In this document: in pieces, positions 60,007 through 64,000 of the stretch
Layout: every line of letters begins with the position of its first letter
Numbering within the stretch: the stretch's first letter is position 1
Assembly: GCA_027451905.1 (NCBI GenBank)
Contig: DAIDHV010000001.1
Location: forward strand, 224,667 to 288,666
DNA: 64,000 nucleotides
Direction: 5' to 3'
Source of the DNA: Armatimonadota bacterium
GTDB lineage: Bacteria; Armatimonadota; Fimbriimonadia; Fimbriimonadales; Fimbriimonadaceae
Position numbers and translations under genes: made by a program
Notes under the pieces: generated by a model
The model's database searches: none
Told to the model about the DNA's origin: nothing
The model's input: the letters and a program-made list of their open reading frames with translations, nothing else

Positions 60007-60603
60007 ATGATCTTCATGCGCACCATTTTTTTGGCAATCATCGCAAGTTCCGCCGCATTAGCATCAAGCGCCCTTTTGTTTTTACCCGGGCATCATCCAA
60101 ATCCGGCTCCCACTCACCTTGTGAACACGCTAAAAGGTGAGAAATTAAATGCTCATGGGGAATACTCTGTGACGCCTAAAGTTTTTAAGGTCGAACATTC
60201 CGAGGCCTCTTGGAAGAAAATGCTCGGTCCCGCTAGATTCGAAATCCTCCGCAAAGCTGGCACCGAAGAGGCCTTTACCGGCAAGCTTTTGAATGAGCAT
60301 GGCTACGGAGTTTTTGTGTGCGCCGCCTGTGGTCAGCCACTCTTTAAATCCACCACGAAGTTTGACAGCGGCACGGGCTGGCCAAGTTTTTGGAAAGCAC
60401 TGCCCGGAGCCGTGATCGAGCGCCCCGATGATTCGCTAGGAATGGAACGCACAGAGGTCATCTGTTCGCGGTGTGGAAGCCACCTCGGCCACGTTTTTGA
60501 TGATGGTCCCAACCCCACCGGGCTCCGCTATTGCATGAATTCTCTCGCATTGAAATTCCACCCCGAAAAGAAGCCGCATTCTGTAAAACAAGCTAAGAGG
60601 TAA
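60007..60603 (+). CDS. msrB: exported peptide-methionine (R)-S-oxide reductase
   Basis: Reduces R-methionine sulfoxide in damaged proteins. Zinc cysteines CAAC (Cys105, 108) and CSRC (Cys153, 156) and the catalytic Cys176 in LRYCMNS are all present, with TGWPSFW and GHVFDDGPNPTGLRYC as family blocks. An N-terminal hydrophobic signal (about 5-26) suggests a periplasmic or membrane-bound location, where it repairs envelope proteins. Length is 198 including the signal. Its stop codon directly precedes the RHS frame, which starts with no spacer. Confidence 0.92.
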   Translation: MIFMRTIFLAIIASSAALASSALLFLPGHHPNPAPTHLVNTLKGEKLNAHGEYSVTPKVFKVEHSEASWKKMLGPARFEILRKAGTEEAFTGKLLNEHGYGVFVCAACGQPLFKSTTKFDSGTGWPSFWKALPGAVIERPDDSLGMERTEVICSRCGSHLGHVFDDGPNPTGLRYCMNSLALKFHPEKKPHSVKQAKR

Positions 60604-60722
60604 AACTGAAATTTGCCAATGGCGGTATTGTCACCAACACATTTGATAGCCTCAGCCGCACCCTTTCGACCACCGACCAGCTTGGCAGGACGACTTCATA
60701 CGCATACGACGCAGGCGATCAT

Positions 60723-63356
60723 GTGATCTCTGTCCAAAACCCGCTGGCGGAAGTCTCCACGTTCATTTACGATGGCTGCCTTTTGCAAGCAGAAGTGAAT
60801 CCACTGAACCAAAGAACCACGTACACATATGGCAGGTTTAACCGTCGAACCTTGGTGGAAAATGCCCTCGGATTCGTCACTACGACCAACTACGATTCGA
60901 TGGGCTACCCCATTGCGTTTATAGATGCCAATGGCAACGTGAACACAACAACCTATGACCTCGCTCATAGGGTCATTGCCCAAACCGATCCTCTTGGTTA
61001 CGTAACCACCTTCGGTTACGATTCGGCTGGGCGACAGAACCAAGTCACCAACCCGCTGGGATTCATCACAACTTCCGTATTCAGCGCCCGTGATCTCATT
61101 GCCTCTATTGATGCCCTTGGCAACCGCACCAGTTACAGCTATGACGCCATGGCAAGGCGAACCGCGATCGAAGACCCCCGCGGCTACCGATCTACAAGCC
61201 AGTATGACCTTGCCGGGCAGGTCACCACAACAATAGACGCCTTGGGGCATAGCACAACCTACGGCTACAACCTGAACGGCGGACAAATTCTTGTCACCGA
61301 TCCCCTCGGCAATTCCAGCCAAACCGTATACTTTTCCAACTCCAATCAGGTTCAAGCCACTGTAGACGCCCTTAGCAACCGAACCACCTACACCGTTGAT
61401 CTTGCCGGACAGCAAACCGCACGTCAAGACGCCAATGGCAACATCATTTCCTTTGGTTACGATCTTGCCGGAAGGCAAACCGTCATCCAAAACGAACTTG
61501 GCTACTCCACAACCACCTCCTACGACGCGGCGGGACGCCCCTCCACCATCATCGATGCCAATGGCTGGCTCCGCACCCTCACCTTTGATGCAGTCGGACA
61601 AGAACTTGTGATCGCTTACGCCGATGGCTCTGCCGTGACCTCCGCCTACGACCCAGTTGGCAATCGCACGACAATGATGGACTGGGGAGGCACCAGCACC
61701 TATGCCTTTTCAGCCCGAAACGAACTTCTTGTTGCGTCCACTCCAACCGGCTACCCGCAGTCTTATAGCTATGATCCGGTGGGAAACAGGGGCGGTTTGG
61801 TAAATCCAGACGGCACACTAGTGACCTACTCTTACAATGGCAATAACGCCCTGACTACCCAACAGCTTCCGGGCGGAAGAACCTACACCACCCAATACGA
61901 TTCGGCTAGCAACCCCACAACCATTCTCTTTAACGGAGGTCAAAGGTTGATGAGCTATGATGGACTTGGCAGGGTGATCACTCAAACTGAATACCGGGGA
62001 GTGAATGTGATCTCCACCATCACCGATGGCTATGACGCAGGTGGCAGAAAGGTCAGCCAGACAAGGGATGCTAATACAACTTTGTATTCTTATGATGCCA
62101 TCAACCGTCTCACCGGCCAAAGCCTTTCTGGTGCGGCTGCAACCTACAGCTATGATAATATTGGCAACCAAACCCTAAAGTGGCAAGAAGGCTCTAGCCC
62201 GATGACAATGAGTTATGATCCTGCCTCTCGGCTGACGACGATGGTTCAGGGTAGCAATACGACCACGTATGGGTATGACAATAATGGCAATACGACCATT
62301 GAGTCGATCCCTGGTGGCTCGACTTATTACGCGTACGATTATGATCCTAGGAATCGTTTGACCGCGTATAATCTGGAGACCGGTGGCAGTACCTTGCCAA
62401 TTGCGACGATTTCCTATGATGGAGACGGGCTGAGGCGAACCAAATGGGCGAGTTTAAACGTAACAACCTATATCTGGGATGGAGTGGATTATTTGGCAGA
62501 GGAAACCGGAGCGGCCCTTGATGTAGTTTATGCAACTGTGAATGGGCAATTGGCTGAAGAGAACAGGGGTGGGACGGTGACCGAATATGTTCCTGACACC
62601 TTGGGATCGGTGATCCAAACCACAAACGCCTCCGGAGCCCAAACTTCTTCTGCCTATTACTGGCCCTATGGAGAAACTAGAACTTCCACCGGAACTAACC
62701 CCAGCCCGTGGAACTTCGTGGGCACTTTTGGCTACTACATGGATTACCCCAGCCTGGCAAGTGGCCCGCCGCAAAGATATTACATTCGCGCCAGAGACTA
62801 CCGCCCCGATCTCTCCCGCTGGCTCACCACCGACCCCCTCTGGCCAATTGAGGCTTCTTATAGCTACTCGAACCTAGACCCCGTTGGTCTGCTGGACCCT
62901 TCTGGGGAAAAATGCCGATCTTTTGTCACTCAGCTAAGCGACCATAGCTGGAAAAAGGTTACAAACTGCAATCGAAGGGAGTATCTGGTATTCCACCTAA
63001 CCTTTCCATGCATGAAGATCGACCCATATTTTTGCTTCCCTCCATTTATACCGGGTCTGTGCCATGAAACCATATCAATTCCATGCGACATCACTGACAT
63101 TACGACAGAGTATCACATAAGCAGGGTCTCGAGGGACAAATTACAGGGGCTGTGCGATCTCTACAGTGGCTTTGGAGTTGCGGCGTGTGTCAGAGCTGGA
63201 GGGGGGCCACTTTGCTTGTTACTACCCGTCCTGTGCTTTCTCGGTCACAACTCTTGCGTCAACCCCGATGGGAGCCAGTGCTTTAAATTTAGGTCGAGGT
63301 TTAATCCCTGTATGTGGCAGGGCGGGCCGGGTTCTGGGTTCACGGGTTGCTGTTGA
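60723..63356 (+). CDS. RHS/YD-repeat protein with cysteine-rich C-terminal tip (5'-truncated)
   Basis: A long RHS protein of at least 877 residues from the GTG at 60723. The same frame, with good YD-repeat sequence, is open back to about 60603 and beyond into msrB without an ATG; a CTG at 60606 has AAGAGG five bases upstream. The usual N-terminal RHS regions are therefore missing. The body is about 20 tandem YD repeats of roughly 21 residues (DLAGRQTVIQNELGYSTTTS type). A conserved core closes it (RYYIRARDYRPDLSRWLTTDP; NLDPVGLLDPSG, to residue 728). The 149-residue tip that follows has 15 cysteines and one hydrophobic stretch (GGPLCLLLPVLCFLG), and resembles no toxin I know. The stop overlaps the next start as TGATG. 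Confidence 0.85.
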   Translation: MISVQNPLAEVSTFIYDGCLLQAEVNPLNQRTTYTYGRFNRRTLVENALGFVTTTNYDSMGYPIAFIDANGNVNTTTYDLAHRVIAQTDPLGYVTTFGYDSAGRQNQVTNPLGFITTSVFSARDLIASIDALGNRTSYSYDAMARRTAIEDPRGYRSTSQYDLAGQVTTTIDALGHSTTYGYNLNGGQILVTDPLGNSSQTVYFSNSNQVQATVDALSNRTTYTVDLAGQQTARQDANGNIISFGYDLAGRQTVIQNELGYSTTTSYDAAGRPSTIIDANGWLRTLTFDAVGQELVIAYADGSAVTSAYDPVGNRTTMMDWGGTSTYAFSARNELLVASTPTGYPQSYSYDPVGNRGGLVNPDGTLVTYSYNGNNALTTQQLPGGRTYTTQYDSASNPTTILFNGGQRLMSYDGLGRVITQTEYRGVNVISTITDGYDAGGRKVSQTRDANTTLYSYDAINRLTGQSLSGAAATYSYDNIGNQTLKWQEGSSPMTMSYDPASRLTTMVQGSNTTTYGYDNNGNTTIESIPGGSTYYAYDYDPRNRLTAYNLETGGSTLPIATISYDGDGLRRTKWASLNVTTYIWDGVDYLAEETGAALDVVYATVNGQLAEENRGGTVTEYVPDTLGSVIQTTNASGAQTSSAYYWPYGETRTSTGTNPSPWNFVGTFGYYMDYPSLASGPPQRYYIRARDYRPDLSRWLTTDPLWPIEASYSYSNLDPVGLLDPSGEKCRSFVTQLSDHSWKKVTNCNRREYLVFHLTFPCMKIDPYFCFPPFIPGLCHETISIPCDITDITTEYHISRVSRDKLQGLCDLYSGFGVAACVRAGGGPLCLLLPVLCFLGHNSCVNPDGSQCFKFRSRFNPCMWQGGPGSGFTGCC

Positions 63357-63751
63357 TGGTCCTAAGAATAAAACGACTCACTTTAGTGCTTGCATCGGCA
63401 ATTTGCTACTATGCTATGTGCCTGCGTTATGGTCAAGCGGTTTCAAAGGGGCAGATGGGAACCCTGATCAGTATCATCCTCTATGTGATCGGCATAATAC
63501 TTTTTAGCACCGTTTGTAGCCAATTAATTAAGCGCTGGGACATTAAGCAGGTCAGCACCTATCGCGCAGCCTATTATCATGTAGGTATGAGCAATGCGGC
63601 GTTGGTTTGTTGCGCCACCTTTAAGTTGCAATGGATGGCTCCATGCTTTCTATTGACTTTTGTCTTTGCCATTCCTTTTATTGGTGATTATTTGGACAAG
63701 GGTCTTCCACCTCTTGGTAGGTCAAGGGATAAGATTCGGGTATTTTACTAA
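63356..63751 (+). CDS. small multi-span membrane protein, candidate RHS immunity partner
   Basis: A 131-residue protein starting at the ATG that overlaps the RHS stop (TGATG), so its translation depends on that of the RHS gene. It has four hydrophobic segments (LTLVLASAICYYAMCL; GTLISIILYVIGIILFSTV; NAALVCCATF; CFLLTFVFAIPFIGDYL), a basic first loop (SQLIKRWDIKQ) and a short basic tail (GRSRDKIRVFY). In RHS loci the gene directly after the tip usually encodes immunity, and membrane immunity proteins accompany pore-forming or lipid-directed toxins. No family match is recognised; the role is inferred from position only. Confidence 0.6.
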   Translation: MVLRIKRLTLVLASAICYYAMCLRYGQAVSKGQMGTLISIILYVIGIILFSTVCSQLIKRWDIKQVSTYRAAYYHVGMSNAALVCCATFKLQWMAPCFLLTFVFAIPFIGDYLDKGLPPLGRSRDKIRVFY

Positions 63752-64000
63752 ATGCTATCGATGGGCGGTTGGTGGAAAAGAATCGAGGTGGAACGGTGAC
63801 TGAATACGTCCCTGACACCTTGGGTTCGGTGGTGAAGACTACCAATTCCTCGGGTGGCATCACTTCAACCATGACCTATTGGCCGTATGGTGAAATAAAT
63901 ACGTCTTCCGGATCTAACCCCAGCCCATGGAACTTCGTCGGCACCTACGGTTACTATTTAGATTCAGGTCAGCTAGGCTCGCCTCGTTACTACATCCGAG
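63751..64000 (+). CDS. orphan RHS core fragment, continuing beyond the window
   Basis: Directly after the small membrane gene a frame encodes a second copy of the RHS core: GRLVEKNRGGTVTEYVPDTL, then SNPSPWNFVGTYGYYLD and RYYIR at the window edge. It corresponds to residues about 606-693 of the full RHS protein (NGQLAEENRGGTVTEYVPDTL) but differs at many positions, so it is not a recent exact duplication. No ATG start lies near its beginning. Such displaced core-plus-tip units are typical of RHS loci, serving as stores of alternative tips. Confidence 0.7.

Follow-up and report, generated by a model that had tools for sequence, protein, structure and literature searches.

The RHS locus at the right end of the window, i.e., the whole stretch of 64,000 nucleotides analyzed in this study (G000:C1:224667-288666 of a 2.87 Mb genome represented by 37 contigs and being 98% complete), most probably constitutes a bank of RHS polymorphic-toxin cassettes. 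Their disulfide-rich tips would act in the cell envelope, and the partner genes located next to them would provide immunity (probability of roughly 0.7). Reading the assembly past position 64000 revealed an array of five tandem core/tip/partner cassettes, followed by the remnant of a sixth core (Table 1).

Table 1. Features of the RHS cassette array. Positions refer to the window unless a contig or locus is given; L007 denotes C1:284500-304000, and the window position equals the L007 position plus 59833.
Feature	Position	Strand	Description
Truncated RHS/YD-repeat shell, cassette 1	60597..62906	+	Open frame running in from the msrB end
Codon of the only Cys in the window's shell (FIYDGCLLQA)	60777..60779	+	YDxC column of the shell alignment
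RHS core end with predicted bipartite autoproteolysis motif	62550..62906	+	DPLWP at 62832, DPSG at 62895-62906
Tip 1	62907..63353	+	Residues 729-877, 149 aa, 15 Cys, one hydrophobic stretch
Partner 1, candidate immunity protein	63356..63751	+	131 aa, 3-4 predicted membrane spans
Cassette 2 start, second RHS core fragment	63761..64000	+	Core homology; leaves the window
Cassette 2, tip and partner	G000:C1:288780-290236		Tip 128 aa, 15 Cys; LRR-like partner 351-377 aa
Cassette 3			Tip 143 aa, 13 Cys; pentapeptide-repeat partner 298 aa
Cassette 4			Tip 171 aa, 13 Cys; partner 136 aa with N-terminal membrane segment
Cassette 5			Tip 196 aa, 17 Cys; partner ~260 aa
Sixth core remnant	L007 11112-11249		Frame-broken

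Organization of the cassette array

An earlier note on this DNA had described a YD-repeat protein ending in the conserved core and continuing into a hydrophobic, cysteine-rich tip, which was confirmed by the family matches and the reading frame. Counted from its first GTG (60723), the ORF of cassette 1 encodes 877 aa and terminates at 63354-63356. RHS repeats were recognized in 15 stretches (Pfam RHS_repeat, PF05593; E 1e-54), and the RHS-associated core was located at residues 646-728 (NCBIfam Rhs_assc_core; E 4e-8). The end of this core is a predicted autoproteolysis site: the TTDPLWP and LDPSG elements are spaced by 21 residues, representing the bipartite DP...DPxG motif of RHS cores as laid out previously (PMC13018210), and the Arg-rich sequence RARDYRPDLSRW is located upstream of it. 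The hydrophobic stretch of tip 1 was identified as AGGGPLCLLLPVLCFLG.

Partner 1 had been claimed to be a four-span membrane protein starting on the RHS stop codon. The overlap was found as described, with the ATG at 63356 sharing its A with the TGA stop of tip 1 (TGATG; partner stop at 63749-63751). The number of spans is less firm, since three are clear by hydropathy and four helices were obtained in a single-sequence AlphaFold2 model of low confidence (pLDDT 58); four membrane spans are thus plausible. A second copy of the core directly after the partner, as noted before, was recovered from approximately position 63761 onwards, i.e., 10 bases past the partner stop, and the proposed inspection of the sequence to the right of the window yielded four further tip/partner pairs.

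Comparison of the array with itself (BLASTN) aligned only the cores, featuring ~75-85% DNA identity over longer stretches, and the tips and partners were unrelated to each other. Homology of cassette 1 to the other cores stops at ~62845 and resumes at 63761, indicating that tip and partner together represent the exchanged unit. The previously suggested polymorphic toxin with recombining tips is therefore supported at the level of architecture by similar cores flanking unrelated tip/partner blocks and by the further pairs on the right; this support does not extend to the pairing of tip 1 with partner 1. Three additional cassettes were found on the 4.7-kb contig DAIDHF010000100.1 of a MAG labelled Acidimicrobiales, with cores being ~75-90% identical to those of the array but carrying other tips, one of which is PLA2-like. 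This contig is probably a misbinned one originating from a relative.

In contrast to the assumption of a working RHS gene accompanied by an orphan second core, the first RHS gene appeared to be an orphan itself. Its frame is already open within the last codons of msrB (msrB stop at 60603) and features no plausible start, and its shell lacks ~450 N-terminal residues compared to full-length relatives, which encompass ~1,180-1,225 residues up to the core end. A full-length gene featuring an N-terminal trafficking region was thus not observed at this locus. The N-terminal part of the platform was also absent from the 98%-complete genome, in which only generic YD repeats were matched, leaving query residues 1-250 uncovered. 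The locus was therefore interpreted as a bank of orphan cassettes and, because no intact platform of its type was found, the array may be silent in this genome. In the full-length shells of relatives, neither an obvious signal peptide nor a known secretion domain was detected.

The start-less first gene, the missing platform, and the frame-broken sixth core are also what a decaying graveyard would leave behind, in which the rhs platform has been lost and the cassettes persist as functionless remnants. This explanation is considered unlikely, since all five tips and partners have kept long open frames, and the platform could be located in a gap of the assembly, considering its 37 contigs. Furthermore, orphan cdiA-CT/cdiI modules tested elsewhere proved to be functional, and their immunity gene can be expressed (PMC3150448).

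The same genome also harbors a second RHS core type, detected at L026 (G000:C1:171000-190000), L030 (C1:443459-447175), L031, L034, and L035. It comprises at least one intact gene of 1238 aa and a long orphan-cassette array, the tips of which contain 0-2 Cys and often feature hydrophobic stretches. Transposase-like frames adjoin the intact gene of this type (L030 region, G000:C1:440830-442654).

Odd cysteine counts in the tips of the order

To describe the tips beyond this locus, 157 core+tip frames were extracted from loci of the order, the genome bins of which may be chimeric. Once frames on the core type with Cys-poor tips had been set aside, 137 distinct tips that were closed and no shorter than 80 aa remained for the parity analysis, their ends depending on the core profile. 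The median Cys content of these tips was 8.2%, and nearly all Cys counts were odd, ranging from 3 to 21. In total, 121 out of the 137 tips featured an odd number of cysteines (p = 2e-21; the data that revealed the pattern also served for testing it). All of the 12 platform-borne (long-frame) tips were odd, and when the analysis was restricted to one tip per similarity cluster, between 43 and 46 out of 52 were so (five random draws, p ~1e-6 to 5e-9). Tips carried by short orphan cassettes followed the odd-Cys rule nearly as strictly as platform-borne ones, which further argues against functionless remnants, as decay would erase such a pattern.

Parity was unbiased for the cysteines of the partners (66 out of 124) and for most other tip residues, with mild deviations for His (79 out of 128, p 0.005) and Met (p 0.046) among eight residues tried. 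The odd count depended on where the tip was taken to begin and end: 121 out of 137 tips were odd when counted from the predicted cleavage site or from five residues upstream, 82 when counted from ten residues downstream, the bias being nearly lost within 10-15 residues, and 70 when the last ten tip residues were removed. Since odd parity is sharpest when counted from the predicted autoproteolysis site, it is regarded as a property of the released tip. An artefact of the position at which the tips were cut was considered and rejected, because the signal reaches its maximum at exactly this site.

A compositional habit of the genome does not account for this rule, as the 11 tips located on the other RHS core of the same genome contain 0-2 Cys. 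A single further order of the phylum contributed 27 tips, 12 of which were Cys-rich; 8 of those 12 featured odd counts, which was not significant. Odd Cys counts point to disulfide-based folding or holding of the predicted toxin and, since the rule crosses unrelated folds, it should reflect a shared way of loading, holding, or releasing the tip. Furthermore, the rule may serve as a quick sign of intact tips in sequence data. No paper on Cys-rich or odd-count RHS tips in this lineage was found in the open literature searched, and a lineage-wide tip class of this kind appears to be undescribed there.

Predicted activities of tips and joint inheritance with partners

Tips were clustered by iterated profile searches on Cys-rich sequences, a procedure by which looser members were possibly over-merged. 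Within the resulting clusters, ten tips carry the phospholipase A2 (PLA2) motifs YGNYCG and DxACxxHDxC (PDB profile E 1e-8). Another 14 tips represent putative metalloproteases with the motif HExxHxxGxxH, in which HExxH and the third His are invariant, snake-venom metalloproteinases being a weak match (E 0.004). A third cluster consists of 15 tips, 6 out of 13 scanned members matching DUF6973, which we take to be the prok-SAA family, and a fourth one of 13 hydrophobic, pore-former-like tips. Moreover, a family of NC(Y/Q)F-type tips was observed at L007:8568-9083 (cassette 4), L037:3168-3611, L062:3738-4229, and L089:2160-2528; the L062 member clustered apart and was assigned to this family by eye only. 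By eye, the family resembles a papain-fold thiol hydrolase.

Tip 1 could not be placed in any of these groups, as neither a PLA2, metzincin, or DUF6973 motif nor a family match was detected in searches against Pfam, NCBIfam, and the other tip families. The earlier observation that neither tip 1 nor partner 1 belongs to a known toxin or immunity family held true, given that searches in Pfam, NCBIfam, PHROGs, and PADLOC returned nothing credible for either of them. For tip 1, searches of 113 genomes of the order and of 291 genomes of the phylum gave no match below E 3e-3, and the same held for partner 1 in the 113 genomes of the order. Relatives of tip 1 were accepted neither from these 291 genomes nor from PDB sequences. 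The best weak matches of both within the order (E ~3e-3) covered short stretches, occurred singly, and lacked supporting context, and were therefore rejected. Likewise, PDB matches of tip 1 to designed 'Cake' propellers were discarded, since they arise from an NPDGS-like motif of 18 residues whose contributions add up across the repeats. The AlphaFold2 model of tip 1, built without relatives, was unusable (pLDDT 33). As no relatives of either protein were found, it is from position and analogy that we infer the pairing of tip 1 with partner 1, and their activities are likewise presumed.

Partners were chosen by rule as the nearest long frame, so that some of the following assignments will be wrong. 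An N-terminal hydrophobic segment was present in 69 out of 111 partners, compared to 21 expected from shuffled sequences and 11 out of 42 genes of the window. The plain number of spans was dismissed as evidence, because shuffled partners score nearly as often, and only the N-terminal segment was used. Multi-span partners were found next to 16 out of 33 hydrophobic tips vs. 13 out of 78 others (p = 9e-4, based on a crude span count). Tip 1 and partner 1 fit this trend, as does the suggestion of the earlier note that the tip could act on membranes, and membrane activity is considered probable for tip 1. Partners lacking any membrane segment exist as well, namely LRR-like and pentapeptide-repeat proteins.

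Regarding joint inheritance, partners were related in 11 out of 218 pairs of related tips vs. 2 out of 7408 pairs of unrelated tips (Fisher p 6e-16, the pairs not being independent). Among order-wide close tip pairs (E < 1e-30), related partners occurred in 7 out of 9. A pair of the cassette-3 type recurs on C15 of the same genome on a different core, with 34% identity (E 1e-21) for the tip and 27% (E 4e-33) for the partner. To judge by these comparisons, tip and partner travel together in other families and in cassette 3. In the Cys-rich tip family TKAECRAAC, the presumed cognate partners are pentapeptide-repeat proteins (L007:6487-7837 and L029:3413-4763), a single genome carrying them behind two different cores.

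That the tips are surface or signalling modules rather than toxins, and the partners their chaperones or anchors, is considered very unlikely. Teneurins are RHS shells that turned into adhesion proteins, and the toxicity of the tips is itself deduced from sequence. However, catalytic motifs mark the recognizable tips as hydrolases, the conserved core contrasts with hypervariable tips and partners, and the pentapeptide, ankyrin, and HEAT repeat proteins seen among the partners are of the kinds expected for binding or immunity.

Proposed mechanism and comparison with known systems

According to the cassette-bank interpretation, in which toxicity, immunity, the site of action, and the role of the extra thiol are inferred, each cassette would consist of an RHS core stretch, a C-terminal toxin tip, and the immunity gene for that tip. 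Homologous recombination between cores would exchange the cassettes on an intact shell, and this shell would free the tip by autoproteolysis at DPxG. The released tips would then fold in the oxidizing envelope of the target and attack there, outside the cytoplasm, some of them as phospholipase A2 or metalloprotease domains. The partners would confer protection in the same compartment; most of them, including partner 1, are predicted to be exported or to reside in the membrane. For the most part, RHS tips known so far are seen as toxins with a cytoplasmic site of action. Disulfide-rich tips that are directed at the envelope and occur throughout an order would thus widen the toxin repertoire and supply many unassigned tip/partner pairs.

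The locus resembles RHS polymorphic toxins and orphan rhs-CT/rhsI modules in its YD repeats, DPxG core, variable tip, and adjacent partner (PMC3150448; PMC3482391). RHS shells are known to enclose the tip and to cut it loose at DPxG (PMC13018210, PMC8765631), and orphan cassettes of enterobacteria, most of which have no translation start, can be functional (PMC3150448). As in orphan rhs-CT/rhsI cassettes, the modules described here are arranged in tandem and start-less, their cores representing recombination sites. Unlike in those systems, nearly every tip is rich in Cys and contains an odd number of them, and the platform is absent from the genome. In the accessible part of the survey published in 2012 (PMC3482391), the terms 'disulfide' and 'cysteine-rich' both have 0 occurrences. 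RHS orphan cassettes, PLA2 tips, and disulfide-dependent antibacterial toxins, each taken separately, are already known.

Lipocone toxins (PMC12419801), including the prok-SAA toxins, are comparable with respect to envelope-acting tips and to immunity proteins that are membrane proteins or lipoproteins, one of them with four TM segments; the cluster of 15 tips matches DUF6973, and tip 1 matches none of these families. A further parallel is provided by disulfide-dependent T6SS effectors (PMC5792426; Tse1, PMC12302283), which, according to the accessible parts of these publications, are antibacterial and need disulfides formed outside the cytoplasm. The T6SS markers PAAR and VgrG were not seen at this locus.

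The odd Cys count would correspond to paired cysteines plus one extra thiol per released tip, and, in the reading that we prefer, this thiol may bond the tip to a conserved shell Cys until delivery. A structural precedent exists in the bacterial teneurin-like protein BiTLP, in which the cut tip stays in the YD-shell and tip residue C2216 is disulfide-bonded to C719 of the FN-plug (PMC13018210). BiTLP, however, represents one structure and not a rule across tips; its domain order is BIG/TTR/NHL, and proteins of its kind are characterized by TTR, FN-plug, and NHL domains preceding the YD-shell. Within the aligned shells, the YDxC column contains Cys in 8 out of 9 shells carrying Cys-rich tips, including that of the window. 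The exception (L126, with an 11-Cys tip) features Ser at this position, and its N-terminal part looks out of frame. Among these eight shells, all six covering the PLGC column contain Cys there as well, and both cysteines are missing from three shells with Cys-poor tips.

Either the YDxC or the PLGC cysteine could receive the tip thiol. That every released tip, whatever its fold, combines n disulfides with one Cys tethered to a conserved shell Cys until delivery is nevertheless a tentative proposal, and a rather doubtful one in this general form, as there are two near-invariant shell cysteines instead of one, so that shell and tip together do not simply reach an even Cys count. If true, a universal redox tether would be required by any new tip for loading and would be opened in the target. 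A matching rule by which the shells themselves always feature odd counts was not supported either, near-complete and clearly readable shells having 3, 4, 4, 6, and 6 cysteines.

There is close to an even chance that the extra Cys is not linked to the shell but serves as a free thiol that is needed for activity, lets released tips dimerize, or forms a mixed disulfide with the target. Parity belongs to the released tip, the two near-invariant shell cysteines could pair with each other, and the NC(Y/Q)F family is a possible thiol enzyme, all of which is consistent with such a role. However, the rule spans PLA2, metzincin-like, DUF6973-like, and hydrophobic tips, which do not have a common catalytic Cys. 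The two near-invariant cysteines correspond to alignment columns 352 and 699, the shells being otherwise 38-51% identical to that of the window.
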